DNA of 64,000 nt from NCBI GenBank assembly GCA_024305745.1, contig JAHRBS010000015.1, forward strand, positions 62,001 through 126,000. The letters run 5' to 3'. Below the pieces are notes generated by a model. The model had not been told where the DNA came from and did no database searches. It was given only the letters and a program-made list of their open reading frames with translations. Positions 14,423-50,061 of the stretch are shown here, piece by piece. Source of the DNA: Polyporus tsugae (taxonomy: Eukaryota; Basidiomycota; Agaricomycetes; Polyporales; Polyporaceae). Numbering within the stretch: the first letter of the stretch is position 1; the number at the start of each line of letters is the position of its first letter. The position numbers were made by a program, and so were the translations under genes.

Positions 14423-17400
14423 TCACGCTTTGACGAGGATATCCCAGTCGTTCGTAACCGCCAGCTTGGGGTCCCGGATGACCAGAACGCTCGCGGTGCC
14501 CTCCTTCTTGTCCGACGACGCGACTCCAGCGGTGTATGTCCACTGGAGCTCCCGGCCGCCCTCGACGGCGACGCTCGACGGCTTCGCAGGCAGGCCGAGG
14601 ACGACAATCTTCTCGACACGCACGTCTGCAATGGCCTTCGCGAAGTCGTTCCTACTGTCGTACGCGGCGAGCGCGACGTGGTCGACGGCCTCCGCGGGCT
14701 TCTGCACGGCGAGGTTGCGGCTGCTGATGCGAACACCCTTGCTCTTCTTGGCGGGCTTCTCCGCGGCGAACTCGCGCCACACGAGCTGGCCCTGCTGGTG
14801 CGAGAACGTCTCACCATCGTCGAGATAGAGCTCGCCGCGAGCGCTGTTGTCCTTGCTGAGGGCGACGCGGAGGGTGAAGGGGTCGCGCTTCATGAGAGGA
14901 GACGAGCGACGAGGACGCTCGCGAGTCGAGATGATGGAGCCGCCACGAACGAAGAGAGGGATCTGGTGCAGTTCGGAGGGAATGGTGATTTCCTTGCCGT
15001 TGACGTCGCTGCGGTACGCGTTGTTGTTGAAGTAGTCATAGTAGACCTCCATGGCAGATTGTGAGGGCGGGCATAAGTATATTCACATGAAGACAACTCA
15101 CCTGGTCCTCAGCGGGGAGGTAAACCGTCTCCTCCGTAGCACCCTTACGAGTAACAGGCTTGACCAACAAGCCAGAACTACCCACGAAGTATTGGTCGTC
15201 GAGAGAGAAGCCCCTCTCGTCCCGCGGGAAAGCAACGAAGTGCGGACGCACGACAGGCAACCCCGTGACGCTCGCCTCACGGAACGCGGTGTACCACACG
15301 GGGAGCATGGAGTACCGCAGGCGGAGCATGTCACGCACGATTCCCTTGTATGGATCGTCCAGCAGGTAGGGCTCGCGGCGCTTCGTGTCGATGTGCGCGT
15401 GCGCACGCATGAAGGGCGAGAAGATGGCGACTCCGTACCACCGCACAAGCATCTCCGGCTCGGGGTTGCCGAAGAAGCCTCCGAGGTCGGCTGCGGGAAA
15501 AAGTTAGCGTGGATGGGGCAGGGACGTCAGAGGTTCACGCACATCCAGAGAAACTGAACCCGGCGATGTTATTCGCCAGGACCATCTTCACGCCGACGGC
15601 CATGTGCTCCCAGGTGCCCAGGTTGTCACCCGTCCACATCGCACCGAAGCGCTGAGAACCAGCGTAGAAAGAACGCGTCAGGACGAATGGCCTCTTGGGA
15701 GGATCCGTCCGTGCTATGACAGCTTGTGAGGTCAGGTTGGCCTGTAAACGAGACCATGAGTCACCAAATTGAGTCATGGGAAACCCATGCACTCACAAAG
15801 AGCATTCCGTTGATGTTGTGGACATCACGGTGCTCCCAACCGCCATAATGGATGTTTTCACGCGGCATGCTAATCTCCGGGCCGTTGAAAATAGAAGGCT
15901 GGGATGCGCATGAGCACTGATCCAGTGAACGCAACTGGAGCACAAACCTCGTTCATGTCATTCCAAATACCAATGTTGACGGTGCTCTCAACCCATGACC
16001 ACTGGTCGCCGTGCTGCTCGGTCTTGAACAGCGACTTCCACCAGTCCCAACTGCGAGGGTTGAAGTAGTCGACCCAAGCGCTACTACCGCTCCAGCACCA
16101 GCCCTCGTAGTCCGTCGCGCCGTCGCCCTTCTTGACAACGATGCCGAGCTCGGTCGCCTGCTTGTAGACTGGATAGTCATCAGTACGTTTCAAGTGCGGG
16201 TCAACGATGATGACCATCTTCCGCTCGATAGCCTCGACGTCCTTGATCATGTCGACCGGATCGGGGAAGTGCCTCTTGTCCCAGATGAAGTACTTGTGCT
16301 CCTCCGAGTACTCGATGTCGAGCCAAAACACGTCGACGGGGATGTCCTCTTCATCGAAGCGCTTCTGCACGGTGCGGACGTCTTCCGAGCTCACGTAGTT
16401 CCAGCGGCATTGGTGGTAGCCGAGAGACCAGTGTGCCGGGAGCGCGGGAGTGCCCGTCAGGCGCGTGTACTGAGCGAAGATATCTGCAGGAGTAGGCCCA
16501 GGGAGGATGAAGACGTCGAGGATACCGGTCTCTGAAATCCAGTGGGAGGTCGTGGACTTGGGAGTGGGACGGCCAACGTCAATCCAGGTTTCAGATCCGA
16601 CTGCGTTGAAGATGGCAACGGTGGAGTCGACGGAGTGCGCATGCATGAAGGGAATGGAACCGTAAAGCGACATGGTCGAGTCTGCGAGGTACTCAAAAAC
16701 ATCGGCGTTAAACAGACGATATGGGTCGGTGAAGTGCGCGTCCTCGCCGGTGGTAGTGGGAAGGTCAAGACGGGTCGCGTGTTGAGGGATACCGTAGACA
16801 TGACCATGGTTGGGGAAATCAATATCCAGAGAAAGAGACTCCGGACCTGATAGTTGGTCAGAGCAAGAATATTGCTGAAGCGTTTGAATAACGCACCTTT
16901 GGGCTTCGGATCCGTGAACGAGTTGAAGGTCTCCTCCCACCAGTCGTCCTCCTGTTCGCCCTCGAACCAGGCGGCGCGCGGATGAACACCCAAGGCGACC
17001 TGAGCGTTGTCATCGGTGTCCACACCTTCCTCCGGAACCGCGATACCCTCCTTGCTCTTCGCGACAGACTCCTTTGTACGGAAGTGCTCCATGTGAAGGA
17101 GACCACGGTTGTTCAAGACGACCTGCTCCTTCCCATCCCGCGACAGCGTTACCTTCAATGGCTCGAACGCAACCTTGACCTCGATGTTCTTCTTCGCGCC
17201 GTATACCGCCTTCACGCTATCCTTCGCTACAGTCCATTGCACCTTCTGGCTGACCTTCGGCTCCTCTAGCAGCGCCCAGGACGCCGCCTCGTCGTAACGT
17301 TTTCGCAGACCATCCACTTCGTCCATCCGCACCCGCACTACTCCATCGTCGTGTATCCGGACATCGATACTGAACTTGACGTCAGGGTATATGGAAGACT

Positions 17401-17620
17401 TGATCGCTGCGGTGAGCCAGGCTTGGTCGGGTGAGAGTATCACGCTGGATGCGTCTACTGAGTATGGAGACCTCCAAGAAGGATTCTCAGCAGCCCTAGC
17501 AGAGAGTGCGCGTCCACGTCGACAGAAGCCAGCTTGAGAACATGTCTTGAAATCATGACTCTTGACGGCGAGGACCGCTGGGATGGCGGCAAGCACCAAG
17601 AGGGAGCCAAACCCTCGCAT
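14423..17620 (-). CDS. ER alpha-glucosidase II, catalytic alpha subunit (GH31)
   Basis: Six exons (17620-16897, 16846-15948, 15898-15797, 15741-15543, 15490-15102, 15046-14423) join in frame to 978 residues, close to the usual family length of roughly 900-970. A signal peptide (GSLLVLAAIPAVLAV) precedes the family start DFKTCSQAGFCRR. The GH31 core has WLDIEYSEEHKYF, the nucleophile motif GIWNDMNEPSIF split by an intron after the Glu codon, and RSFYAGSQRFGAMWTGDN with the acid/base Asp. In the ER lumen this enzyme trims the two inner glucoses from N-glycans and controls calnexin cycling. It normally pairs with a beta subunit that is not in this window. The upstream neighbour at 17925 is divergent, leaving a 304-bp shared promoter gap. 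Confidence 0.95.
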
Positions 17621-20157: not shown

Positions 20158-21853
20158 TTAAGCACACTCGCCAGCAGTCTCTGCGGCGATGTTCCACTGG
20201 CTGCGGAGCGTGGCGCCGTTGTAGCTGAACGCGGGGAACTTGGACGTGCCGGGAGCCGTGGCGCCACCGTCGGCCTTGAAGCACTTGGCGAGGAACTGGT
20301 TCGTGATCGTGGCCGGGAGCACGAGCTGGCCGGAGTGCGCTGCAAAACGAACACCGCGTCAGCATAGGCCACATGACACACGAGTCGAGAGAAAGGGGAG
20401 ACACGACACGCACTGCTGCGGTTGAGGAGCGAGAACTTGACGACGCTGGTCGCGCTGACGCCAGGGACGGCCGTCTTGATGTGAGCAATGCGCGCGTCCT
20501 CGAGCTGCTTCTTCTTCGCCGCGTTCGAGGAGTCGCCGACGAGGTTCTCGGGGATGAACGCCTTGCGGAGAGCCGTGCGCCAGTTCGAAGACGACTTGGC
20601 GAAGATCGCGCACAGCTGCGCGGTCGTGTCCTTGTTGACCTTCGCGTTGTTGTTCGCGAACGCGATGGCGCTGTGGGAGGGCTCGCGTTCAGACTCATGC
20701 ACACGGAGGGAAGGGTGGCTGGAGAGACCACGTACATGTCCTGGTCGTCAGTGACGTACACGCCTGGCCCGATCTCGGCGTCGGCACCGCTCGTGCCCGC
20801 GGTAGTGCCCTTGGGCCCGAGCCCGAGGAAGTCGAGGACCCCGTCGGCCTTGACCGGCTTCTCGAGCTGGCCCTTGGACTCCCAAAAGGCGGCGGTGTCC
20901 TGCCCAACGCGTCAGCTGCGTGAACTAGAGCCACAACGGGGGAAGGGGCGTACACTGTTGGTACCGTGCCAGCCGATGAACTCCTCGTTGTCGCGTGCGA
21001 AGAGGTGCGCGACGTAGTCGAACGCACGAGCGAACATCCTCGGCTTCTTAGTCGGCTTCGTGGGCTTCTTGATGGGGCACTGCAAACAATGTTAGTCGGC
21101 GATGAATGCCACTGAACTACTTTCGAGACCTACCGCACTTGGCTTCGACGACCCGCTGGCCTTGGCGGTCTTCGAAGCCTTGGACGTCTTCGCGGGCTTC
21201 GTCGCCTTGGTCTTCGTAGGCTTAGCTGTCTTCGCGGGCTTAGTAGCCTTCGCCTTAGTGGTCTTCGCGGGCTTGGTAGCCTTCACCTTAGTCGTTTTCG
21301 CAGGCTTCGTCGCCTTCACCTTGGTCGTCTTCGGCTTGGGGGCCTTAGTGACCTTGGGCTTGGGAGCCTTGGTCTTCTTCGCCTTGGGCACTTTGGGAGC
21401 CTTGGGCTTGGAAGCCTTCGGCACCTTCGCGGTGGTCTTCTTGCGCGCACGGCGCTCGAGAGTCGAAGACTCTGCGTCGTCGTCTTCCGAGTCTGCGTCG
21501 TCGTCGATGTCGCGTGCCTCGAGATCTTCGTCCTCGTCCTCGTCTTCGAAGTCACGGGTCTCGAGGTCTTCGTCATCCTCCTCAGGGTCTTCATCCTCCT
21601 GGTCGAAGTCGCGTGCGTGGAGGTCCTCGGTATCCTCCTCATCGTCGAAGTCAGCGACGGGTGCGGGCACGACGGAGGGCTCGGTGGCCCCGTTCACCTA
21701 CGGACAATAAATCAGCACAATGAGACGCCTCACGAAGATCGCGCAACGTACATTACTGAGGTCGGTTGCAGCGGCATCGCCAACCGGAGCGGACTGGACG
21801 GAGGCGGAAAGAGCGAGAACGGCGAGAACGAGAAGGCGGTTGAAGGACGGCAT
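20158..21853 (-). CDS. Secreted ADP-ribosyltransferase-like protein with acidic/Lys-rich pro-region
   Basis: Six exons (21853-21752, 21697-21134, 21079-20954, 20899-20736, 20670-20414, 20339-20158) give 464 residues in frame. A signal peptide (LLVLAVLALSASVQSAP) is followed by an Asp/Glu-rich region with repeated LxxRDF sites (LHARDFD, LETRDFE, LEARDID) and LERRARKK, then about 90 residues of Lys/Ala/Thr/Pro repeats (KATKPAKT type). The C-terminal domain has FIGWHGTN, then GPGVYVTDD and AIAFANN. This order and spacing resemble the His-Gly-Thr and Tyr motifs of diphtheria/exotoxin-A-class ADP-ribosyltransferases. The catalytic Glu was not placed with confidence. No lesion is seen. Alternatives are a diverged inactive fold or an unrelated secreted family. 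Arg sites in the pro-region suggest Kex2-type processing, which is inference. Confidence 0.6.
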
Positions 21854-21894
21854 GATAAACGTGCTAGCGTGGCGTTGATGCGGTATGGAGCAAT

Positions 21895-22107
21895 GAATGT
21901 ATTGGCGATGAGTAGTTTCGTGAAGGAAAAGCCGCACAGCTGTAGGAGGGATATGTTAGCCTGCATAATAGAGCGACGACAGGTATGTCGTTGGGACGTA
22001 CCAGCTGAAAGGAGTTGAGAAAATTTAAAAAAAGAGGAGAGGTGGCTCGAAGGAGAAACGAAGGCGAGCTGGAGAAACGGAATGGATCACGGTGGGGTAT
22101 ATATACT
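21895..22107 (-). promoter_or_regulatory. Promoter and 5' UTR intron of the ADP-ribosyltransferase-like gene
   Basis: Minus-strand TATA-like run GTATATATAC at 22097-22106. Downstream, a probable 5' UTR intron starts at a GTACGT next to CAGCTG (about 22001) and ends before the ATG at 21853. The block containing GCCGCACAGCT, CCAGCTGAA and GGTGGCTCGAA recurs upstream of the repeat-precursor gene at 35497-35671, so both share a promoter/leader ancestor. Confidence 0.45.
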
Positions 22108-22650
22108 AGTGCAGGCCGTGCGGCAATCTTCGTTTGCGGTTCGGGCACCCGGCCTGAAGGTTGGCGAGTTACACAGCATGAAGAGCGGGCTCTAGAATAC
22201 GTTGATCAAAGTATCAGTGTCGCCATGGTGTTTATTGTTGCCAGAAAACATTTCAAAAGGCGGGATAGAATCTATAGCCGTGACTCAAGCTTCAAGCTGG
22301 TGTACTATTTTGCACTCGAAGGTCGGGAATTTCTGAACCAAGCCGATAGAAAGGAACTTTTGGGACGAGAATCCCCGACACACCAAAACGACGATCCGTC
22401 GATCCGTCGATCCACGCCGTGTGAGAGCCTGAGGAGGAGGAAGAGAGGACGTAACAAACCTCGAAACGGTAAGCGATACGCTCGGTGCTGATGTAATCCG
22501 CCAATCCGGATATCGGCCACCGCCTGTCGGATGCCATGCTCGGACTGCGGCTCTGCGCTTGAAGTTGAAACGCAGTGCCAGTGCAGTGCTTCCCTCCACC
22601 CACATAAGCTGGCTCCCCGGCCAACGCACTCGTGAAACACACCATCCGCC
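22108..22650. other. Bidirectional promoter gap
   Basis: Lies between the divergent starts of the ADP-ribosyltransferase-like gene and the small Cys-rich gene. No further motif recognised. Confidence 0.4.
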
Positions 22651-23257
22651 ATGCTCATCTTCACTTCCCCCGACATTGCGAAAGGTGGCATCGAGCTCGC
22701 GATCGCCCGCAAGAGCCCCGGCACCTACCTCCTCATCCTCGCCCGCGCGTATGGCATGGCCGCCACTCGGGTGCATGCCATCCTCAACTCCTCCACGCCA
22801 TCCTCCACGATCCCCGCATCATCCGCTACCGGTCACCCTTTAATCTGGCTCGACACGGACCTCGACCGTGATCCGCGCAACCTGGGCCCCACCGAAGGCG
22901 TTCTCGCAGCGCTCAAGGCGGCCGAAACGCAGGTAGTGCAACCGACCGGCCGTGTTCAGCGCATGCACGGCAAGGAGGGCGGCGAGCGCGACGCACACGA
23001 AGTCGAGCTCATCCTCGACGAGGACCAGCTCGCGCGCTGCTGCTGGTACTGCGATGCCCTCGAGCTGGACACGGACGTCCGGGATAACGACCGCTTCCAG
23101 CTATGCAATGGCGAAGGCTATACGAGCACGTACATGTGCCCTCAGGTAGGATGTCCTCGCGCTCCTGGTCATCCATCTGACTTGGGGTCAACGTCAGTGC
23201 GCAAACAAATCTGGGTTCGCCCGGGCCGTCTCCGGCTTCCTGCGCTCGTTCTCATGA
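22651..23257 (+). CDS. Small protein with C-terminal cysteine cluster, unknown function
   Basis: Two exons, 22651-23145 and 23198-23257, separated by a 52-nt GT-AG intron, give 184 residues. The N-terminal half (MLIFTSPDIAKGGIEL ... LIWLDTDLDRDPRNLGP ... VLAALKAAE) has no family I recognise. The C-terminus has CCWYCDALELDTD, then QLCNGEGYTSTYMCPQC completed across the intron. This Cys-x2-Cys, Cys, Cys-x2-Cys arrangement could bind zinc. No signal peptide. Reading through the intron instead would give a longer hydrophobic tail with no cysteine pair, so the spliced form is preferred. Confidence 0.55.
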
Positions 23258-26200
23258 ACATACTCCATGTCCTATACTTTACGACTTTCTATCTTATTTA
23301 TGCATTTGGTCCACTCGTCAAATCAATTCCAAGTACTCCAGAAGTACTCATGCCACATTGAAGGGCGGACTGTATCGATATGAACCACGACTCCAGAATC
23401 ACATGTCCGGGTTTCTCGACTTCACGATGTGCACCGACTGACCGATGCCCTCAAAGCATGTTGATGGTCTTTCAGAATCTCCACCGCCGTAAGTATACCA
23501 AATTTTATCTGGCCGACGATCGCAACGTTCTCTTACCCGGGTTTCCTTCGGAACTCCCGGCCTGGCTATGTTACATGTACCTGTACCCGTAAACCTGTCC
23601 GTAGCGCTGCACATATGGATAATCAAATCGTCCCGATGATGCTCCACTGTCATGGACTCCAGCCAATTCGAAATCCCCTACATAATGATGACACACTTCT
23701 CTCGTAACAGGAATCCTCACCCATGGCGAGAACTCCAAACGTCGCAGTGATGGCATGGGGAACCCCGGCCTTGATGGTCGCCGGTCCTTTAGTCCTACAC
23801 AACTTGATTCTAAAGTGCACGTACATCCTGCCACTAGGACATGCCCCACTTGTGTGTCCGGTGGTGGCACGTTTTGGAGTCCACCATCATGTGTCCGAGT
23901 CTTCGACTCGCAACCTTCCCGTGCGACACATGTGCATCTGAACAGCTTCCCACAAGCGCAATACGTACTTAATTAGTAAGTTGAGGAGCACAAGCACCGT
24001 GACGTACGCAGTTTCGGACGAGCCACTTAGTGAACGCTCATCCGACCTCGTTCAGGCCTCCCCAGCAGGCGAACATGAACAGGGCTGTTCGAGGTTGATC
24101 GGTCCTCATTGGCTATACATCTGATGGCGAACTGTCAATGAACTGTCCATAACGGCCTACCAGTGAGCTAGAGCCCACCTACTTACTCTGCGTAAATGCC
24201 GGCCCCGATGATCGCACCATCTGCTCCGACGAGGTCGCGAACTCGGAACTGGCATGCAATGGCAGAGAGGTAAGTAAGGCATCACTCCAAGCCAGTGATG
24301 TGGAGCCCGGTGCTACCGGTAAGGCTTTACAGAACCAAGGCACCCCGAGGGGGGCGGGCCTTGCCAGTGATGTCGTTTGAAACAGACGGCGGTGACCGGA
24401 AAGACGCCAGACTTCGTTGCGTTTCGGTGAGGAACTAGGCTTCTCGTATTCTGCGGTATAGGGATAGGGACGGTTCTCAGTGATATGTATGTAGAAGTTG
24501 GAGAGTCCGTTGTTAGCGAACGACGAACATATGCACTTACCACCGGCTGTGCCTTTCACGTTCGCCGCAGGACACTGTTACGCGGGACATGTTCGCGCAA
24601 TAGCGACAAGCGTCTTCGTTATCACCTGCATCCCCAATGCGCATTTACATCCCGTTGTCGCGGGACCCTCCCTTCGATGATATCGAAATTGCCCTCCCAA
24701 CTCCGCTTTGGCGTCTCTCTCCCCGTCGGCGCCGTCACGCTGGTGGTGCAAATCCTACAAATTGCATCGCCGCGCGCCCGGCGATAGCGGCCACCGTTGC
24801 CACCTGCTGATTCGATGGACCAACCACACAGGCACTGCCCGTAGCATGATTTCGCGTCTCAGCGAGCATCTAGGTGGCTTCCAGGCAGGAAGACCGTCGC
24901 GGGACGCCCGGAGCGCTCTGAGGGGAGCTAGCGCAGAGATGTCGAGCGAAGGTGAAGGCGAAGCCCAGGGCCTGCAGGGATCATGGTGATCGGGTGCACG
25001 AAGTGCCATATGGTGGGGATCGCCATGTCTTTCACGCTCGTCGAACCCTGCCGCAAGTACGTATCTACCGAGGCCGATCAAACGGAGGGGGCTGAGCGAG
25101 GTCTTGCCAAGCGTGTGCGAGAGGCGCGAAACCCGAGCTAACATTCAGGGCGGATGAGGAAGACAATTGTCATGAGCGAGCCGAACATGTCCTGTTACGG
25201 AATGGACTGTTAAAGGCCGCAATGGCGAAACATTGACGCAACCGAGCCAAGTCCTTGTGAACAACGCGACAGTGACCGACAGGAGGAAGCTGAGCGCAAT
25301 TGCATAGCACATAGGCAGGCTGTGTAGGAGGGGAGGATGGAATCTGCTGAAACATTGCGTCAGTCTGTCAAACTCGAGAACAGAACACTACGAACGCATG
25401 TCACGCACGGTTGTTAGTCTTATCAATCGGCGCATGGGAAAACGGAGCCACCACAGCCTTGTGTTGGTCCGACAGGAGGCCTATCCTGAAGCCCGACGAT
25501 GAGGCCCTCCGCATGGCCGACTACATCGGCGCGGACGAGCTCGAGCACGCGCTGAGCATCGCCGCCGACGAACCGGACGCACGTATCTCGTTCTCCACTG
25601 TGAGCCCGAATGGGCACATCCCGATGACGTCGTCCATCTCGTCGCTGGCGGAGACTGGGTCGAACATCTTTGGCGCGGACCCGTTGGCTCCGGCTACATC
25701 TGGGTTCGCGGTAGTTGTCGCGATACGTCGGGGCTGTTTAGTAGGGCATAGCCAACCGTGTAACGTAATTGTATAGACGCGCGCCGAATATTGATCCTCC
25801 TCCTCCTCAGCTCCTGGTACGCTCTAAAGTTCGGACCTGTATTTCAATCCACGCATCCTCAGCAACAAGCAGATGATAACGCACGCACCCTGGGTCCAAC
25901 ATATTCAGGGAGGGGTCCAAGAATGCATGACAGGAGACCGCAAGTGACAGTAGCGTGCGACGAAGGGCAACCTGAAAGCGGGCAGCGATTTCTTCGTCGT
26001 CATCGAAGGCGAAGTACTCTGATGGCCTGAGGTGTCAGAATTTCGTGGAATGCATCTTCCTAGCCCGCCAAAGTGGGGAAGGGGAAAGAGGCTGGCATGG
26101 TGGCACTAATCTTGGTAGTAAGTACCATAAGCCTGCAGCTGGATCCGTTTAGCTTTTGCGCGAGTCGACTCGTATACAACAACTCATCCGCCACTTGTCA

Positions 26201-26709
26201 GGCCAAAGTAAAACGATGCTGTAAACGTGACCACCATATAATAATCAAGCCAGGGGCTCCTTCAAAGCGCATACAATAGGCGTCAATGTGCTCACCTTGG
26301 ACGAAAACGTAGAAGGATGTTGGGCTGGTCGACTAGAGACGAGCTCAAGCCTCAAACTCGCCGGATGGATTGTGGCATTGGCGCCAAGCTGTCACAACCA
26401 CGTGGCAACTCAGCCATGGGGCGCCAAACGACCGAATGCGGCCCATACGACGACTTAGAGCTTGCTCTGACCAGCTCGACAACGGTCTGCGCCGGGAGAC
26501 TACCGAATGCTAGCAGAATAATAGCGATCAGTACTAGGAACAACGTGTGAGTATTCTCACTAGGCGGAAATACTCGAATGTCACTCACGCCAACAAAACG
26601 TACAGTGACCGTTCCGAAACCGTGCCACCCAAGTTATATTGGAGACATTCAATCCAACGTTTCGTATGGGAAATAATCGAGCGGCACGGACGATATAATC
26701 ACTGACTTC
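23258..26709. other. 3.4 kb without an assignable gene; weak coding traces
   Basis: Mostly short frames without motifs. Two GC-rich stretches look partly protein-like: 24498-24680 (MESPLLANDEHMHLPP ...) and 25411-25776 (DDEALRMADYIGADELEHA ... ISSLAETGSNIFGADP). Neither could be joined into a gene model or matched to a family. They could be exons of a decayed gene or chance frames. Confidence 0.3.
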
Positions 26710-28510
26710 ATGTTATGCAACCAGTCGACGTTTCCATCTTCAATGACCCCAATGGCGTCAGTTCGTCTCTTCCAATGTCCAGAGACGCTGGCCGAGATAT
26801 TCTCCCATCTCGAGCCCGGCCCAGGCTCCCGCGTTGAACACACGCATACGATTGAACTTGAACACCGAGAGCTCCGCAGGACCCTCGCTGCAGCAGCGCG
26901 CTCTTCCCGAGCGCTCAGGGAGCATGCTCTCAAAGTGCTATGGCGAAGATTGGACAGCGTGCAACCCCTGCTGTCGCTTCTCTCAAATCCCCAACTGGAG
27001 TTCCCAAACACATGTAACTGTAAGTCACTCGTATGCTCTTCCGATACAGATAGTCGTATGTAAACAGATGCTGCACAGAGCGATCAATCCAGAATCTTGG
27101 CTACGCTTCCGGACGCACGCACGACGCGTAAGAGTGTTGCACGACATGGACTGGTCCACCATACATCCCTCGACCTGGGCCTTCATTGGGCGATGGTGTG
27201 GCCCTGAACCGCTCCTTCCCAACCTGGAAGAGCTTTCGGTGCTTCCTATCAGCGTGCGAAGCCCTACCACCATGATGTTTGTATCCCCAAAACTTCGTAG
27301 TCTGGCGTTGAGGATGGACGACCACGGCCACGGCCACGGGCGACCACTGCCAGGGGACTCCGCGATCATTTACATGCTCCTGCGACAGATCGTGTCGACC
27401 GCTCCTGGCATAAGGACCCTTGCCGTCACCAACCACCTGTCTCTCCCGTCCTCTTGCTACTACCCAATTGGAAGCCTCGAGAATCTCGAGGCGTTGTATG
27501 CTCGCGAATGCGTGCTTGACTTCTCCCTCCTTTGGTGGCTCGGATCACGCCCTCTCCACTCGCTCGCTGCCACGATCGACATGACAAATCTTCCTCCGCC
27601 GTCGGAAGACCCGGAAGACGAGTACGACGATTACTCTCCATTTGATGGCGGTTTCGGCACTCTCAAGCACCTCGCCGTCCGCGGGACCCCCGAGCACATC
27701 GACCTCTTCCTCGACAATACCGTCACCTGCGACCTCGAGACACTTACCGTGGAATTCCTCCGTAACACGAGCAAGGAGGTCATCACCCGCTGCCTCGAGA
27801 ACATACCGGAGGATGCCCTGCTAGGCCAGCCCCTCCTCCGGGAGCTCACGATCAAGTACCCATATGAGTCGCACAACGTCGACGACGGCGACGATGACGA
27901 GGACGGCAGCGCGAACACGCTCCGCGATGCCTCGCTCGTGGACGTCATCAGCCCTGCACTCCGCATCCCCTTCCTGCGCAAGGTCACCCTCCATTTCCAC
28001 CGCATCCCCACCCTCACCGACGCCGGCCTGCTACAGATGATCGACGCCTGGCCTCAGCTCACCGCGCTCCACATCACGCCCTCGCGCGACCGGTACTCGA
28101 GCCGCGTCACGCTCACCCCGTCCGTCCTCGTCGCGTTCGCCCGCCGATGCCCGCGGCTCGCCGAGCTGACGCTCCCAGAGGTCCCGCTACACGACGTGCC
28201 CGCGGAGAAGGACATGCCGCTCGTCGGGCAGCGCGCGCTGCGGCGGCTTCGGGTTTCCTTCCGCGAGCGCGGCCGCCAGCATGTGCTGTACAAGGCAGCG
28301 CTGTTCATCGATCGGTTGTTCCCATGCCTCACATTGAACCCGTCGTTTGAGGAGGAAGAGGAGGAGCCCCCTAGCCATAGCCTGATCCGGATGTCGTGGG
28401 AGAATAATGCGAGGGAGGAGGAGAGGACGTGGAGAAGGATAGAGGAGTTCTTGTACGCGATGCAGCTTGGGAGGCGGCATCGCGAGCAACTCAAGAATGC
28501 GTCGCACTGA
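26710..28510 (+). CDS. F-box/LRR protein (SCF substrate-receptor-like) A
   Basis: Two exons, 26710-27019 and 27081-28510, give 579 residues. Exon 1 holds the F-box (CPETLAEIFSHLEPG ... LRRTLAAAARSSRALREHAL ... LWRRLDSVQPLLSLL). Exon 2 starts NPESWLRFRTHARRVRVLH and continues with irregular leucine-rich repeats (LRSLALRMDD, LETLTVEFL, FLRKVTLHFH, PQLTALHI, CPRLAELTLPEV). The tail is FIDRLFPCLTL, a Glu-rich patch and AMQLGRR. Alternative starts at 26743 and 26752 are in frame. Such proteins usually bind Skp1 through the F-box and a target through the repeats; the target is unknown. It is followed by a tandem relative at 29523. Confidence 0.82.
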
Positions 28511-29522
28511 ACGCCCTCATCGGGATATCTAGGTGAGAGGTTCGGCGTGCGCAGTCTGTCGTCTTGCGGTTGCCAACTGAATGCTGGACTTTTGCCTTTT
28601 AGCCTCTCTGTCCGAGTCTTGAAATACACTTCAGAACCCGTCCTCTCCCGTCGCAAGGCTGTGGCTTCTTCCTCCACCTTTTCATGCTTGTTGGTCACGG
28701 TTGGAATTTGGCCACTTGCATGGTGCATTTGCCGGTGGCTGCGTAGTAGACCAGAGACGTGAGTGGCGCACCGCTGTCTCTTGGCCGTCCTTTTCATCTT
28801 ACGTCCATGCTTCTTCTCCCACTCCAAGTTCCCTCGGGAATTTCTTCAATATAGCCGAGGACAAACTTCTGCTTACCCTGCGCAGGTTCGCTCTGGTGAA
28901 ATGCAACTCCGTGGGCCAGCTCCAGCGATGTCATATCAACTTGAAGCCCTTACCCACCCCACTGGTTTCGTTTACCGAGCTCGACGACCTGTCCTTCGAT
29001 CTCGGCGAGACCCCTGTTCACGTATCGGACGAGGGGATAAAGGGGTTTCGGGCTGCCGGTGGTCGCCGTGGGGGGTTACGAAGGCACATCTGGGGTTCAT
29101 GCAGACCGTCTGGAGCGACTCGGTCTCATCATGTTATTTATTTCGGAGTTCATAGCTTTAGAAAACGTAGATGACGTTTAACTTTTGGGATCGAATAAGG
29201 TATTTGAGAAGGATGTCGATACAGTGTGCTCGCTCGCGAATTGCTGACGTCGTGGTCACCGTGGACCGACCGACTTGGACCAGTACCATGCGTGGAATCA
29301 CGACGCGGTGCCACAGGTGTGGCTCGACGCGTCTCTTCGTGACATAACGCGTTGTGTGTCGCGCGTTAAACGCAACCGCCGTTTTGGCACTGACGACGAC
29401 GATCGAACATTGCGGAACCACCCTTCTCCCATTCGAACACGGGTGAGTAGGTATATTCGATTGTGTTAGATTATTTTTAAACTGACACTGATGGTAAAGT
29501 CGTCGTGTTAGCCACTGACTCG
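28511..29522. other. Intergenic between tandem F-box genes
   Basis: About 1 kb with only short open frames. No repeat, motif or decayed F-box sequence recognised. Confidence 0.5.
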
Positions 29523-31347
29523 ATGAACCCCCCTAACGTGACTTCCGAGTCTGCAGGCTCAATCATCCTGCCATGTCACGGCCAGACGACTGGGCAGTCC
29601 GCGATCACCCGTGCCCTTTTCTGCCAGGAGATCGCTGAAGCCGTCTTTAGCCATCTCTCCCTCAACTCCGAAATATTTGATCGCCCTCATAGGGATTATC
29701 TTCGAGAGCGTTCCGACAAAGACGAACAGCGCGAGAACCGACGTACTTTAGCCTCAGCGGCGCGCGTATCAAAGTACATCTCTGAAGTTGCCCTCTCGGT
29801 CCTCTGGGCTCGACTTCACGGGTTTGATCACCTGTTTGAGCTCCTGCCTCAGTATGTTTCCTCATGGGACAATGAGGATGTGCGTATGTCCCTTGGGCTC
29901 TTATTCCTGTCATGCCGAGCTCATGGCAACTACCTAGAGCCTCGGACTAAGCGGAGACCCGACCGACGAAGAGTGGGCCACTCTCCAGAAATATGCAGCC
30001 CTCGTGCGAGAAATACGCTTGCTCTATCTCGAGCCCTCCGAGCAGAAAGTCTGGACGGCCATCTTGGATCGCTATGGCACCGTCAGCGGCTTCCTTCCCC
30101 GCCTCACAGCACTAGCGGATTTGCACATCACCCCGACGGAACCCTTATCGCATCCTTTTCTCCTCTCCCCTACTTTGAGACACCTTTCCATAGGATTGGA
30201 TACCCAGGACCCGTCCAATGCCGGGATACTGTTGACTACCGCCCTAAAACACATCGTCGCCGTAATTCCCTCTTTATCCAGCTTGAAGATCCGGCGAGGC
30301 CCTGAACACCAACAGATATCTTGGACAATGCCTTCGTTCAAATCCATGCGCAGCCTCGACATTACCCCCCGGCTCGCGGCGGACGCTTCCGTCCTCGCTA
30401 CTATCGGGCAATTCGAGCACCTCCGAGTCCTCTCCATTCACATCAGCGATGACTGCGCACACCTGCAGGGCTGCTTGCAGGCCCTCACCCAGCTCAGCAT
30501 CGGGGGTCGTGCAGTTCACATCCAGTCCTTCCTCGCTGCGACGTCCCCGCCGCTCCTGCAGAACCTCGCCCTCTTCTTCATGCACGACCCCAGCACCGAG
30601 CTCCTCGCACAATGCGTGTCCGCAGTGTCTACCACCGTTCCACCCACGCTTTCCGCGCTTTTGCTCGAATCTACGCTGACCTTTGAACCCCCAATCACCT
30701 CCGCGATGGACGTCATCCAGCCCGCGCTCGCCCTCCGCGCGCTCACCCGCTTCGCCTTCAAGTTCAAGCCCCTCCCGTCCATCAGCGACGCCGACATCTC
30801 CGCCATGCTCTCCGCGTGGCCCGCACTCACCGCCCTCCGCATTGAGAACGACTACCACCCCGCATTCCCCCCCGGCGACGCGCCGTCCCCGGGCTCCCGT
30901 CCCACGGCGCACATTCTCCCTATGATCGCCACGCGCTGCCCGCACCTGCACATCCTCCAGCTGCCCGAGGTCGACTTCGCCGCGACGCCGGCACTGGACT
31001 CGCTGCCGCCGCCGCTCGGGCACCCGCTCCGCACGCTCGACTTGGCGTCGCGGTGCGCCGACAGGCATTCGTGCATGCGCGCGGCGGTGATGCTCGACAG
31101 GCTGTTCCCGTTCATAGTGCTTCCGCCGATCAGGGGAGACATGTATGATGAGCGGGAGGAGACGGGGTGGGCGGTTGTCGTGAGGCTGCTGAACGCGATG
31201 CAGGCTGGTCGCCGGAATGCGGAGGCTTTCGAGCGAGAGGGTAAGAATGGCGATGGCGATGGAATGGAGGGCGGGAGTGAGGATGAAGGCGAGGGCGAGG
31301 GCGAGGGCGAGGGCGAGGGCGAGGACGTGGACATGGGTCTCGAGTAG
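29523..31347 (+). CDS. F-box/LRR protein B
   Basis: Two exons, 29523-29879 and 29938-31347, give 588 residues; the intron is 58 nt, phase 0. The F-box region reads LFCQEIAEAVFSHLSL ... RRTLASAARVSKYISEVALSVLWARLHGF. The second exon opens SLGLSGDPTDEEWATLQKY and carries leucine-rich repeats (LRHLSIGLDTQ, MRSLDITPRL, LRVLSIHISDD, PALTALRIEN, PHLHILQLPEVDF). The conserved tail is MLDRLFPFIVL, AMQAGRR and a Glu/Gly-rich end encoded by a GAGGGC microsatellite. Domain order is the same as F-box protein A, but the identity looks modest, so the duplication is old. Confidence 0.82.
31291..31320 (+). repeat. (GAGGGC)5 coding microsatellite
   Basis: Five perfect 6-bp units encoding alternating Glu-Gly in the extreme C-terminus of F-box/LRR protein B. 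The length is a multiple of three, so copy changes keep frame. Confidence 0.8.
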
Positions 31348-33896
31348 ACTAGTTGCACGCACGGTCGCTCGAGCAAATGATACTTCAACGGCAAATGAGT
31401 TGATTCGTACAGGCTACTCGGGAGCCCCGCTTTAGTTAAAAATAACCTAGCATTGGTCAGAGTCAAAGAAAAATGAGAGACTATCGAACATAGAATGAGT
31501 AAACGGAGTCACGGTAAAAAGGGCGCGTACACTGGGAACTTGAGTCCAAGAGCGTACAACGCGGCAGAGTCCTGATATTTCGACTCGGACGAACAAAATC
31601 AAGGCCGTACCCCCTGCTACGGTTCTCGTTATCCATTTGTTGGAACGATATCGCATATACGCCCTATGGTGACGGAGCAGTCACCTCTAAAGAAGAGTAC
31701 TTTCCCATCTAACGAGAAAACGATATGGCCAACCGAGGTCCGGTGCCAGGAGAACGTGCCAATGGACGACCCATCTCTACTAGTCCTCCACAAGCGCACC
31801 TTGTGATCCTCACGATGAACCCGGTGGACGGTTATCTGTGGTGTGAGAGGGCAACGTCAGTGGGGGTGCCTGACGCGACGAGAAACCATGTAGAGTGTGT
31901 AAGGGTTCCAAGAAATGCGAACATTCAACACATGGTCGCCAACGTATCAGTTCCCATATAGCGCAGACGTACGTCGCAATCCCAAATCCCGGCTTTCTGG
32001 AGCAACGGTGTCCAGAAACAGGCGGATGCGGGATTGTATACGCCAAAGGATTCAGCGTTGCGCTAAGCAGGCGCACGGAGATGGTAACGGAGAGTGATAT
32101 GACGTGTCCTCTATGAGAACACAACCGTAGTCGATCGCTAGCTTTCAGAGCAAAACCGAGAATCGCCACGATAAGCCGGCTATTCGACGCCTTTGGTCTG
32201 CAACTCCAAGGAGCTTCGGTGCCAGGAAGCCGACTTGGAGAGCATGAGATCCCAACGAGATGACATGAAACGAACGCTGATCGTGCAGTGGACATAAGTC
32301 AAAGGACCAGCAGGCGAGCCGTAAGCATCCATTCTACCTTCACCAGGGAAGGTTCTGAACGGGTGTATGCGCACATGGAGAAGGCGAGATCGTACGGGGA
32401 TCGCAGAGCATCCTATCAAGGAATGAACACAGATGATGCGACAAGCAAGGGGGCAGGGGACCAGGCAAAAGCGATGAGAGGGCATGGATAACGAAGACTC
32501 ACCACCACCCGAGATGCACGTCCTGAGCGTGACAGCTGCTTTCAAACATTGATGGTAACGAATGGCCGGCTAGCGCAGGTATATATATGCGTGCAGTGAC
32601 GAATAAATACCGTTCGGGGCGTGTAGCAGCAGAGGGTCGGAAGGCGAGGTTGGAGGGACCACGTCGCTGAGGAACAGGATAAATGCATGGGTTATCAGCA
32701 AAGAGAAGGGTACGGCGGTTTAAGGGAGGAGAGGAGACAAAGAGGGGAAACTGACCATTTATTTCCATTCCGCCTGCGATATTTGCGAGGACGGACCCGA
32801 CCGATTTCTTGTCTGCGGCGCGCGATGTGTTCAGCTAGCCCCAGACACTAGCTTACGTTGGCGATGGCAGAGCGCCTTCGGATGCATGCAAACACACACT
32901 TCCATGATTTATGAGGTAGTTGGGAAGGGCTGGGTGGGCTGGCGCGAGGTGGATGCCGTGCGGAAGAATGAGTATGGAGGCCAGTATCAGTGAAGTATGT
33001 GCGGCCCGTGTGTGGTGGCAGCGTACAAGAATCCTCTCAGCGCTGGTGCCACCGAGTTTGTATCTATTTGTGCACGTAGTATCATGTACGACTTGAACTT
33101 TAAACATGGTTCTTCTTGTCACGTTCATCTCCTAGTACACTGCCGTGGCAAACACCTTCTCGAAATTCGTGAACGTATACTAGGAGAAGACGACGAGCGC
33201 ACCGGGAGACCTAGATAACTTCCCAGTGCGTCAGTAGAGAAAAGACAAATGTGTAATACCACTTAGCACTGTAAAGCACATCAGGCAGTCGGCGACGGAC
33301 CGCAGGAGGGACACTCCGTGCGAACCACGATCGACATCCACCAACTTTACCGTCGTCTTCTACCGTCACTGGACTGCTGTTGCTATATCTTTGCCGTTAA
33401 TAGACCCATACCATTCCTCAGAGTATATTTGCCAGATGCGAGCTGCTGAGTCTGGGGAGCATAACGGTGAACGGGAACGGAGCGTGACCGGCAGTGGGTA
33501 GAGTCAAACACTCATGCTTCAAGTTTCGCAGCATAAGTACCGGAGGCGCGCCTTCGCGGGCCGGGACAAATCTCAGTAGACGTGCGATATGGCAGATACG
33601 GCGATGCGAGAGGAAACAAAGTGGCCTGTCAGACTCAAAGGGGATCCATTCGAAGTCGCACCGTCGAAGGCATCGCACACGAGCGGGCGCACAGTATACC
33701 AGGACGAAACTGTAATATAATGCCAACAATGCCGTGGCGAGGTGTACGCGATACAAGACACGATCTACGGTATGCGCTCTGACCTAAACCGATGCCTTCC
33801 GCGTGAACAGCCGATGGGGGAAGGGACTGGGAGGTAACGAAGAGAGGGGACTAGGGAGAGGAGTAGGGAGACGATGCAGGCGGGGCGATTGACGGC
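31348..33896. other. 2.5 kb without a clear gene; possible decayed membrane-protein gene
   Basis: On the minus strand, fragments resemble pieces of fungal multi-pass membrane proteins: HLATALLALYYSFVLVY (about 33740-33690), TSLILASILILPHGIHLAP (about 33000-32930) and FALKASDRLRLCSHRGHVISL (about 32150-32090). They are in different frames and no splice chain joins them convincingly. It is either a degraded gene or chance hydrophobic frames. Confidence 0.25.
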
Positions 33897-35457
33897 CTAC
33901 TCATCGATGTCCGCGAGCGAACGCCGGAGGGTGAGGTCCCCGTGGCCGGAGAAACCGACGCCGTCGTATGTACCGGAGCCCTTCACCTGGATGCCGGGGC
34001 CCTTGTGGCCCTTGTGACTCGTGTGCTTGGGCTTGGTCGCCTTGTGGTGCGCCTTGTGATGCTTCTTGGCGCGGGCCTCGAGGGTGTTGTCCTCGTCGTC
34101 GTCGAACTCGCGGGCCTCGAGCTCCTCGTCGTCCTCGTCGTCGAACTCACGGACCTCGACGTTGAGGCCCGCGTCGCCGTGGATGCCGAGGTCGCCGAGG
34201 ATACCGCTGACGATGCCGCCCTTGCCAGAGTGGCTCTTGTGGCCCTTGTGGGCCTTGGGCTTGGTCGCCTTGTGGTGCGCCTTGTGGTGCTTCTTGGCGC
34301 GGGCCTCGAGCGTGGTGTCCTCGTCGTCGTCGAACTCGCGGAGGGTGAGGTCCCCGTGGCCGGAGAAACCGACGCCGTCGTATGTACCGGAGCCCTTCAC
34401 CTGGATGCCGGGGCCCTTGTGGCCCTTGTGACCCTTGTGCTTGGTCGACTTGTGGTGCGCCTTGTGGTGCTTCTTGGCGCGGGCCTCGAGAGTGGTGTCC
34501 TCGTCGTCGTCGAACTCGCGCGCCTCAAGCTCCTCGTCGTCCTCGTCGTCGAACTCGCGGACCTCGACGTTGAGGCCCGCATCGCCGTGGATGCCGAGGT
34601 CGCCGAGGATACCGCTGACGATGCCGCCCTTGCCAGACTTGTGGCCCTTGTGACTCGTGTGCTTGGGCTTGGTCGCCTTGTGGTGCGCCTTGTGGTGCTT
34701 CTTGGCGCGGGCCTCGAGAGTGGTGTCCTCGTCGTCGTCGAACTCGCGCGCCTCAAGCTCCTCGTCGTCCTCGTCGTCGAACTCACGGACCTCGACGTTG
34801 AGGCCCGCGTCACCGTGGATGCCGAGGTCGCCGAGGATACCGCTGACGATGCCGCCCTTGCCAGACTTGTGGCCCTTGTGACTCGTGTGCTTGGGCTTGG
34901 TCGCCTTGTGGTGCGCCTTGTGGTGCTTCTTGGCGCGGGCCTCGAGGGTGTTGTCCTCGTCGTCCTCGTCGTCGAACTCACGGACCTCGACGTTGAGGCC
35001 CGCGTCACCGTGGATGCCGAGGTCTCCGAGAATCCCGCTGACGATGCCGCCCTTGCCAGACTTGTGGCCCTTGTGACTCTTGTGCTTGGTCGACTTGTGG
35101 TGCACCTTGTGGTGCTTCTTGGCGCGGGCCTCGAGGGTGTTGTCCTCGTCGTCCTCGTCGAACTCGCGAGCCTCCAGGTCCTCGTCCTCGTCCTCCTCGA
35201 CGTCGCGGGGACCGTAGAACCCGGGCTTGAGGGGAGGGTCGCGGGCCTGGAGCGCGCCAGACTCCATGACGTCGGGCTCGGCGGAGCGGCTCACCTACAA
35301 TTTACAAACGATGAGTAAGGACGGGAACCCGCAGGGGAAAGGCGGTGCGGCTTACATGACCGAGGGCACGGCGTTCAACAGTCTCGACGGGGGCGGACTG
35401 GACGGAGAGGGAAAGAGCGAGAACAGAGAGAACGAGAAGGTGTTGGAAAGCCGGCAT
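33897..35457 (-). CDS. Secreted repeat-built precursor protein (KEP-like), His/Lys-rich and acidic blocks
   Basis: Two exons, 35457-35356 (34 codons) and 35294-33897, give 499 residues. The signal peptide (LLVLSVLALSLSVQSAP) ends near VERR. The rest is six repeats. Each has an acidic run (EFDDEDDEELEAREFDDDED), a cleavage-like LEAR, a cationic stretch (KKHHKAHHKATKPK, SHKGHKSGKG) and a glycine-rich core. Two core types occur in the order A-A-A-B-A-B from the N-terminus. Core A begins GGIVSGILGDLGIHGDAG (4 copies) and core B begins GPGIQVKGSGTYDGVGFSG (2 copies). Arg after each core (VEVR, LTLR) and LEAR suggest processing into peptides by a Kex2/Ste13-type route; that is inference. Alternatives are a structural wall protein or a metal-binding protein. 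The first exon parallels that of the ADP-ribosyltransferase-like gene. Confidence 0.75.
33905..35190 (-). repeat. Six coding repeat units in the precursor gene
   Basis: Near-identical DNA blocks. Core A lies at about 34980-35062, 34785-34865, 34555-34640 and 34150-34230. Core B lies at about 34340-34440 and 33910-34010. Intervening blocks encode the His/Lys-rich and acidic segments. High DNA identity between units points to recent unequal exchange or gene conversion. Confidence 0.85.
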
Positions 35458-35489
35458 GATTGATAGAGTTGGCGATTGAATAAAAGTTT

Positions 35490-35671
35490 CGTTATGGAAA
35501 GCCGCACAGCTAGAGGAGGAGGTAAGTCAGCATGACGGTGGCAAGTTGACGATGGGGCATATGGTTGGAACTTACCAGCTGAAGGGGGTTAGAAGAGAAG
35601 AAAGGTAGGTGGCTCGAAGGGAAAGCGAAGACGAGCTGGGGATCTCAAGCGCATCATGCTGGCCTTTTATA
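35490..35671 (-). promoter_or_regulatory. Promoter and 5' UTR of the repeat-precursor gene
   Basis: Minus-strand TATAAAA at 35665-35671. A probable 5' UTR intron begins GTAAGTTCC next to CAGCTG (about 35578). It shares GCCGCACAGCT, CCAGCTGAA and GGTGGCTCGAA blocks in the same order with the leader of the ADP-ribosyltransferase-like gene (21895-22107). Confidence 0.5.
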
Positions 35672-48286: not shown

Positions 48287-48328
48287 TCTCCCCTTTGGTA
48301 CAACAACCCCTAGAGTTTGGAATACATC

Positions 48329-49912
48329 ATGTCTCGCTTTGAAGTTCTCCCAACGGATGCCTTTGGGCCCAATGAACCACACACCCCACCCAGTGGAGGA
48401 AACCCACCTGAAACAGAAACGACCCCCTGGCCAGCATCTCAACACCCCACACGCCCGCCGTCACCAACACTGACCCTTGAACCTATACAGACTCCAACAA
48501 GCTGGACGTTTCAGGGTGAACCATACAACACGCTCGCAGAGGCAGTCCGAGCCTCTGGGACACACTACAAAATAGACACCGAGTACATCGACTGGATCCT
48601 AGCCATAATGAACAACATGGTCAGGCAAGACATCATAGGAGCTTGCATCCAGTTAGGGAACAAAATGTATGAACACCGGAACTCAACCGCCATCAACATC
48701 CACGAACTCCAAGCCCAGCAGAAAAGGTGTGTCACCCATACAAAGTTCCACAAAGCCATGGACGACCTGGAGTCCTGCTGTCGTGACTTGGAAATGGAGA
48801 ATGATACGCTCAAGGCCGAGAGGGAAGTCCTCAAAATGGAGATGGATGTCCTCAACACCAACACTATGATGCTCATTGAGGCGATCAAGGAACTGAAAAT
48901 GCAAGTTGCTTCACTCATTGCTCACCCAACCATGGCACCTATCCGCACGGCCCCGGCAACCGTCCCATCGCACAACACCCACCGGCCTAGAATCGCGGAC
49001 CCTCCCAAGTTTAAAGGCAAAACCCTGGATCTTACAGTGGAGCAATGGTTCCAGAAACTTGGCATTTGGTTCCGGTACCAGAACATCATGATGGACGATG
49101 ACAAGATCACCACCGCTTTATTGTTCTTGGAAGGAGGAGCCCAGTCGTACATGGATGACTATGCCCAAAAAGCCGCAGACAACACCTACCTTGGCACCTG
49201 GACCAGTTTCGTCAACCGGCTCAAGAGCGGATACCGGGAACTAGCACCAGAGAAGTCTGCTCAACAATCTTTGAAGGAACTGTGTGCCAAGTCCCACTCG
49301 TCCCTCGCCTTGTTTGCGGAGAACTTCCGCCGTTTTGCCATCAAGTCTGGTTACTCTGACGTGGAGCTCATTCATCGTATTGACGCTCAGTGCAAGGGCG
49401 ATCTCCATACCACTATGATCACCCACCGCTCCTTGTCACTGTTTACAGTCCCCACGAAGTGGGAGAACTTCCTGGATTGGGTACTCAGGATTGAGATGGA
49501 CTACTGAGGGAACAAGTACCACAAGGCCGCCTCCTCTTCAAGAGCTGCCAGAGATCCCGATGCCATGGACATCAATGCAATGCGCAAGCCGGAGAAGCTC
49601 TCCAAGGAACAAGAGGACTGGCTAGCCAAGAAGATGTGCTTCCAGTGCGGCAAACACCCATACAAGTCTGGCGGCAAACACCCATACAAGTCTGGCACCA
49701 AGTGTCGCAACCCGGTATACAAGGGGTACTACGAGCTTCCCGACTTCAAAGGCAAGGGTGTTGCACCAACCAAGATACGGGCCGTCGAGGAAGAAGCCAA
49801 GACCAAAGACCAGGACCGAATGGAGTTTGAACTCAGGAGCAAGCAAGAGCATCAGGAAACCACTGCACAGATTGTCGAGACTAACGAGCAGGATTTTCTC
49901 CAGCGGATGTAA
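48329..49912 (+). pseudogene. gag polyprotein, interrupted by TGA
   Basis: From ATG 48329 the frame has a Pro-rich start, a coiled-coil stretch (LEMENDTLKAEREVLKMEMD) and the retrotransposon capsid-like domain (PPKFKGKTLDLTVEQWFQKL ... WTSFVNRLKSGY). A TGA at 49505-49507 cuts it in the same frame. The frame then continues with a nucleocapsid region containing a Cys/His knuckle (MCFQCGKHPYKSG ... TKC). That knuckle carries an exact 24-bp tandem duplication (49649-49672 and 49673-49696). Confidence 0.8.
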
Positions 49913-50061
49913 CGGGGACTGGCCATAACATCCGATCCATATGTACTAGTAACGTAAACCACCTAGAGGAATCATTTGTACCTAAATCGAACTATGTATA
50001 TCTCACTTCATCATGCAGACAGCGACAGTCACTCGATTTAAAACTCACCCTCAGGCAAGGT

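Follow-up and report, generated by a model that had tools for sequence, protein, structure and literature searches.

The 64,000-nucleotide stretch of Polyporus tsugae DNA analysed here (contig JAHRBS010000015.1, positions 62,001 to 126,000 of the forward strand; hereafter the window) raises a simple question: why should a gene with a predicted ADP-ribosyltransferase-like (ART-like) end and a gene ending in a series of His/Lys-rich peptides begin in almost the same way? An earlier note on this DNA had placed both genes on one strand and had proposed a common secreted scaffold reused with different payloads. Our gene models agree with the positions, 20158–21853 (gene A) and 33897–35457 (gene B), both on the minus strand. 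The scaffold itself is supported, and can be widened to 12 genes with three classes of payload, but its sharing is now best explained by descent rather than by reuse. We consider it probable that these genes form one small family of secreted precursors derived from one ancestral gene through duplication, change of payload and cleavage at L-E-x-R sites; the processing, expression, activity and role of the products are what we infer.

The introns of both models were placed from their GT/AG ends and from open frames. In each gene exon 1 is 102 nt long (34 codons; 21752–21853 in gene A, where it has 12 genome-wide matches, and 35356–35457 in gene B) and encodes a predicted signal peptide identical to that quoted previously; it is followed by a phase-0 intron (54 nt in gene A and 61 nt in gene B) and by a second exon that starts with GTG. 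Gene A encodes 464 residues and has four more introns beyond exon 2. Its exon 2 (21134–21697) comprises, from the gene model and the contexts of its Arg residues, an acidic pro-region with LHAR, LETR, LEAR and LERR and then a Lys/Thr/Pro-rich linker, while exons 3 (21079–20954), 4 (20899–20736), 5 (20670–20414) and 6 (20339–20158) carry an LFAR site and the ART-like domain, a region (20158–21079) assigned from the gene model, its homologues and the fold of one of them. Gene B, of 499 residues, has a single long exon 2 (33897–35294), in which acidic EFDDxDD..LEAR segments alternate with six AKKHH-headed His/Lys-rich peptides, the tandem cores already announced for this gene, up to a C-terminal RRSLADIDE. 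The pro-region design of acidic runs, L-E-x-R sites and lysine-rich runs is seen in both genes.

The likeness starts upstream of the coding sequence. Three leader blocks had been said to occur in the same order in both genes, and they do: on the sense strand, TTCGAGCCACC, TTCAGCTGG and AGCTGTGCGGC. The last two coincide with the two ends of an intron in the 5′ untranslated region (5′UTR), CAGCTG/GT...AG/CTGTGCGGC, which we infer because its GT and AG ends are conserved, being kept in all 12 aligned leaders. From the alignment with the 11 other family leaders, that of gene A (21854–22110, minus strand) would consist of a TATA-like stretch, a 5′UTR exon, the putative intron (22001–21940, GT...AG) and a second 5′UTR exon; by the same alignment that of gene B (35458–35671, minus strand) would run from TATAAAA (35671–35665) through a 5′UTR exon and the putative intron (35575–35510) to a second 5′UTR exon. 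Local alignment of the 400 nt upstream of each ATG, with exon 1 excluded, gave a score of 110 for leader A against leader B. This is far above the control stretches of the window (n = 624; next best 28, after setting aside one stretch scoring 106 that overlaps the leader of gene A itself) and above dinucleotide shuffles (n = 500; maximum 29), so that the two leaders align better than random sequence. The leader and exon 1 of gene B are also 87–95% identical to those of eight paralogues.

The extent of the family was defined by searching the 43.2 Mb genome with four DNA queries. Exon 1 of gene A, alone or with its leader, returned the same 12 loci; leader plus exon 1 found 11 of the 12 when taken from gene B (locus L038 was missed) or from locus L039 (L043 was missed), and none of the four queries gave a thirteenth locus. 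Genes A and B are therefore two of 12 genes carrying the signal exon, and the leader, the 5′UTR intron ends and the intron position are common to all of them. The GTG start of exon 2 is not general, as it is found in seven of the 12 (the others have GCG three times, GGG and GTA). The leaders fall into an A-like class (gene A, L038 and L039) and a B-like class of nine. The payloads form three classes: an ART-like domain in two genes, tandem His/Lys-rich peptides in nine (the B genes) and acidic LEAR repeats only in L039. L038 encodes 435 residues and shares 407 of 433 aligned positions (94%) with protein P0004 of Ganoderma leucocontextum, which suggests a source related to Ganoderma. The 11 genes other than L039 lie on contigs C4, C5 and C13. 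Two weaker matches to the domain of gene A (40% identity, E about 5e-7), on opposite strands of contig C1 (4741225–4741482 and 4773377–4773634), are not among the 12 loci with the shared signal exon.

The nine B genes encode 248–499 residues, in which acidic pieces such as EFDDDEDTTLEAR alternate with basic pieces such as AKKHHKAHHKSTKPKGKGHKGHK; the heads of the basic pieces are alike between genes and are extended by varied, often glycine-rich tails. All nine end in SLADIDE, and a degenerate DNA pattern for LADIDE-stop has nine matches in the genome, namely the nine B genes, against none for the reversed control. Their second exons (3388 residues in total) hold 451 Lys, 386 His, 160 Arg and seven Tyr and neither Cys nor Trp, and the overall charge of the proteins is modest (−4 to −32). 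A majority of these Arg residues (95 of 160) stand within the motif [LVIF]E[AVTS]R, 63 times as LEAR. We counted 50 R-xxxHH heads, three to seven per gene, one of which (HHGHH) is of a different kind; 33 are AKKHH, and 17 have no KK at that place (SSKHH, ETKHH, ATKHH and others). KK occurs two to seven times in each gene, mostly inside the AKKHH head, while the seven KR all fall in L045 and the single RR is that of gene B. Before SLADIDE, K-R, R-R, L-R, or E-R/A-R followed by EF, interchange. Relatives were sought in a set of 5.8 billion proteins: a full-length search, weak for a low-complexity query, scored 7996 candidates with none at E 0.001, and a search with the signal region, weak for so short a query, gave 22 candidates with none at E 10; since both are blind to unannotated genes, they do not prove that relatives are absent. 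Among the literature matches listed, those on Ganoderma secreted repeats, histidine-rich proteins, kexin or peptide precursors contained nothing on the B family, and those on conserved signals with a variable mature part contained nothing fitting.

The ART-like end attributed to gene A holds at the level of fold, through the model of a homologue, and not at the level of activity. Protein P0002, whose alignment covers 99% of residues 250–464 of gene A at 75% identity, stood in for it in the fold searches, and its structure model matches the catalytic domains of exotoxin A and cholix best, which points to a fold shared with exotoxin A/diphtheria-like ADP-ribosyltransferases for P0002 rather than for gene A itself; identity in the exotoxin A/cholix-type rows is only 9–14%. 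The assignment is drawn from these fold searches because sequence searches of the PDB were weak: a single-sequence search with the ART-like part found nothing convincing, and a profile search gave weak cholix matches (best E 0.08). Candidate NAD-site motifs (columns His-Gly-Thr and Gly-x-Tyr) are invariant in 17 aligned homologues. Unlike exotoxin A and cholix, the rest of the gene A precursor consists of the acidic pro-region and basic linker, in which we recognised neither a receptor domain nor a translocation domain. Pfam gave only matches judged to be of low complexity for genes A and B; DUF5910 (PF19287), a family of unknown function, is not listed for gene A, which does not reach its curated cut-off. 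Among five homologues scanned, P0001 and P0012 exceed this cut-off, P0002 and P0009 fall below it and P0004 has no match; no paper in the literature collection searched bears the name DUF5910. A [LI][FVN]x(1-2)R site stands shortly before the domain in 17 of 19 homologues (P0015, which lacks a domain start, is left out of these counts), with K-R, R-R, E-R, A-R and G-R interchanging there, and 13 of the 19 contain L[EDSG]xR.

How, then, did two such different payloads come to share one start? Gene duplication followed by change of payload explains it best, judging from these sequence comparisons, because a similar signal and pro-region design is found in many mushroom homologues of gene A and because non-coding flanks are shared among the nine peptide genes, which are copies of each other. 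The older form would be an ART-like precursor made of signal, acidic stretch, L-E-x-R, basic linker, L-F-x-R and domain, since relatives from several mushroom genera have the same layout. One copy would have lost the ART-like domain, and its acid–LExR–basic segment would have been repeated to give the peptide precursors, which would then have spread through segmental duplication. This last step is the most likely one for the nine B genes because their flanks are shared, to a reach that varies by pair, up to about 1.1–1.2 kb before the ATG and about 2.4 kb beyond it; gene B, L043 and L045 share an extra neighbour of about 2.3 kb as well. Segmental duplication is preferred to spread by a mobile element, a candidate that we rejected, because no transposase or integrase domain was found in the five open reading frames (ORFs) scanned at 26834–32295 (not every flank was scanned).

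As to the proteins, we suppose that after removal of the signal peptide the Golgi kexin, with a carboxypeptidase, would cut after the Arg of [LVIF]-E-[AVTS]-R, so that the gene A product would yield the ART-like domain and the gene B product His/Lys-rich peptides. The acidic pieces would balance the basic cargo during transit; Arg would mostly mark cut sites, with Lys and His supplying the charge of the cargo. The single-Arg sites are treated as kexin-type because dibasic and single-Arg pairs interchange both before the ART-like domain and before SLADIDE. A kexin is indicated by one P_proprotein (P-domain) match. It lies on contig C7, scores 67.5 bits, which is above the cut-off, and spans one stop codon, perhaps within an intron. 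The available part of PMC9769878 reports single-Arg cleavage as probable for Coprinopsis precursors expressed in Pichia. For the products, the most likely role would be to protect the fungus chemically from microbes or grazers, with membranes or metals as the targets of the cationic peptides. This role is a guess, the weakest step of our proposal, made from the charge, the His content and the toxin-like sister.

Several observations weigh against descent from one ancestor with cleavage at L-E-x-R: 65 of the 160 Arg residues of the B genes lie outside [LVIF]E[AVTS]R, some within the cargo; six of the 19 gene A homologues lack L[EDSG]xR; KK, a kexin site in published screens, is present in every B gene and bears on the choice of LEAR as cut site; and the A and B leaders, apart from the first 63 nt of exon 1, are no more than 53–65% identical by segment. 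Moreover, when the starts of exon 2 were compared between gene A and the nine B genes, the scores exceeded all 300 local-composition shuffles in five pairs and fell within the shuffle range in four (two ties with the maximum and two below it), so that the case for homologous pro-regions depends on modest scores within sequence of low complexity. It could be argued from these four pairs that the acid–LEAR–basic likeness is one of composition, reached by convergence, with homology limited to the leader and exon 1. We find this improbable given that z ranges from 2.6 to 6.8 over the nine pairs and that the first residues of exon 2, VxxxxEPxVVP, are alike in gene A, L041 and L042 and partly so in other B genes. 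The opening 63 nt of exon 1 invite another explanation, namely that this part of the signal exon passed by exon exchange or gene conversion between genes of the A type and the B type. It is on average 87% identical from A to B, compared with 78% from L038 to B, while in their 5′UTR segments gene A and L038 differ from B to a similar degree; between genes A and B, codons 2–21 are identical at 15 of 15 positions encoding the same residue, as opposed to one of four in codons 22–34. Yet the leader and the ends of the 5′UTR intron are also common to both types, and the same 63 nt are the best conserved segment between gene A and L038 (89%) and between gene A and L039 (84%), although the numbers are small. 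Most of the identity of exon 1 can therefore be explained by constraint, and such copying is in our judgement unlikely. It should be noted that synonymous identity is nearly perfect over the first 21 codons (21791–21853 and 35395–35457 in the window) and then ends sharply, and that each of codons 4–19 in gene A has a pyrimidine in third position. The codon identity could stem from gene conversion or from constraint on the part that encodes the signal.

The place of the cuts and the fate of the pieces can also be read differently. If kexin cuts at KK within the AKKHH head rather than at LEAR, the B genes become ordinary kexin (KEX2)-processed repeat proteins (KEPs). The frequency of AKKHH and the presence of KK in all nine genes speak for this, as do the screens described in the available parts of PMC6339444 and PMC9769878, which cut at dibasic KR, RR and KK sites. 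The 17 heads without KK at that place speak against it; so do the Arg that precedes the counted heads (by construction), mostly as L/V/I-E-A-R, and the replacement of single-Arg sites by K-R and R-R before SLADIDE and before the ART-like domain. We regard such cutting as rather unlikely. About equally doubtful, and the main rival to defence, is a structural role in which the acidic pieces and the basic ones, or chains left uncut, would assemble into a charge complex on the hypha, in a surface layer or in an adhesive. The strong alternation of acid and base, the modest net charge for proteins of this length and the absence of Cys and Trp would suit it, and the available part of PMC6339444 mentions a role in the cell wall for Rep1, a fungal repeat precursor; the cargo tails that vary between genes behind heads that are alike suit diversified peptides better than a bulk polymer. 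Finally, some members might be precursors of ribosomally synthesized and post-translationally modified peptides (RiPPs) of the dikaritin type, modified by UstYa oxidases. L039 (G000:C8:1098891; 315 residues, built of acidic LEAR repeats and lacking both basic cargo and a domain) has one UstYa match at a distance of 6.5 kb and two others at 18–19 kb (C8:1105416–1118152); about 0.45% of the genome is as near to a UstYa match, among the matches listed, and eight of its 26 Arg-delimited pieces contain Tyr. Over 12 genes, each at 0.0045, one such neighbour is expected by chance with a probability of about 5%, which makes this proximity only suggestive. For the B genes the combination expected of a dikaritin precursor, a UstYa gene close by and Tyr in the cores, was not found: among the matches listed (at least 20), none lies on C4, C5 or C13, and Tyr numbers seven in 3388 residues. 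We consider it very improbable that some members are such precursors; L039, with its three UstYa neighbours, might itself belong to a RiPP cluster.

Retaining descent with change of payload and single-Arg cleavage, we may ask how the family compares with known systems. Like the KEPs of PMC6339444, PMC7329392 and PMC9769878, as far as their available parts describe them, the B genes combine a hydrophobic start with repeated cores between presumed kexin sites and inferred secretion: each has three to seven R-xxxHH cores (at least three similar cores are asked of a KEP), if a single Arg counts and with similarity judged by eye, the genome has the P_proprotein match on C7, and the hydrophobic N-terminus would act as signal peptide. 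They differ in that the most regular boundary is a single-Arg L-E-A-R beside an acidic spacer instead of the KR, RR or KK cut in the screens of PMC6339444 and PMC9769878, that the Arg-to-Arg cores reach 38–66 residues in most genes (they are shorter in L040 and L045), and that they have leader and signal exon in common with an enzyme-like gene. A Coprinopsis cinerea GH128 precursor (available part of PMC9769878) has a signal, a kexin-cut peptide and a C-terminal enzyme domain, much as we propose for gene A, but it holds one short peptide, and repeat-only sister genes are not described in that part. Our family is best placed as a variant among KEP-like precursors and secreted proteins of the ART fold, both of them known kinds, and the unusual part is the start common to an ART-like gene and peptide polyproteins. 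Amphibian skin precursors of the dermaseptin type likewise join a conserved signal and acidic pro-part to varied cationic cargo, with dibasic sites and usually one cargo each; belonging to another kingdom, they offer an analogy only.

The family provides a concrete example of the way in which new secreted peptides may arise, with promoter, leader intron, signal exon and pro-region kept and the payload changed. We tentatively suggest, as a possibility short of an expectation, that the secretory start served as a platform, the acid–LExR–basic pro-segment of the ART-like gene being repeated and becoming cargo, with single Arg as the cut code. The family suggests that kexin-type precursors may use single Arg as their main sites, and it points to putative exotoxin-A-fold secreted proteins across mushrooms. 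If this is true, screens restricted to dibasic sites would misplace the cuts of the B genes and could overlook members such as L039; the stronger statement that published KEP screens miss the B genes was dropped, as those screens also cut at KK, a pair found in each B gene.

The stretch co-duplicated with gene B lies at 30520–32850 and, by sequence comparison, has 87% identical copies beside L043 and L045. A long plus-strand ORF (30004–31347), with only a sub-threshold leucine-rich repeat match, overlaps it, and the stretch 30004–32850 is duplicated along with gene B at two sites of C13, with partial copies elsewhere. Elsewhere in the window, ORFs of a Ty3-type retrotransposon occupy 48317–52535 (a sub-threshold gag-like match and matches to reverse transcriptase, RNase H and integrase), and the ORF at 16457–17620 has a glycosyl hydrolase 31 N-terminal match.

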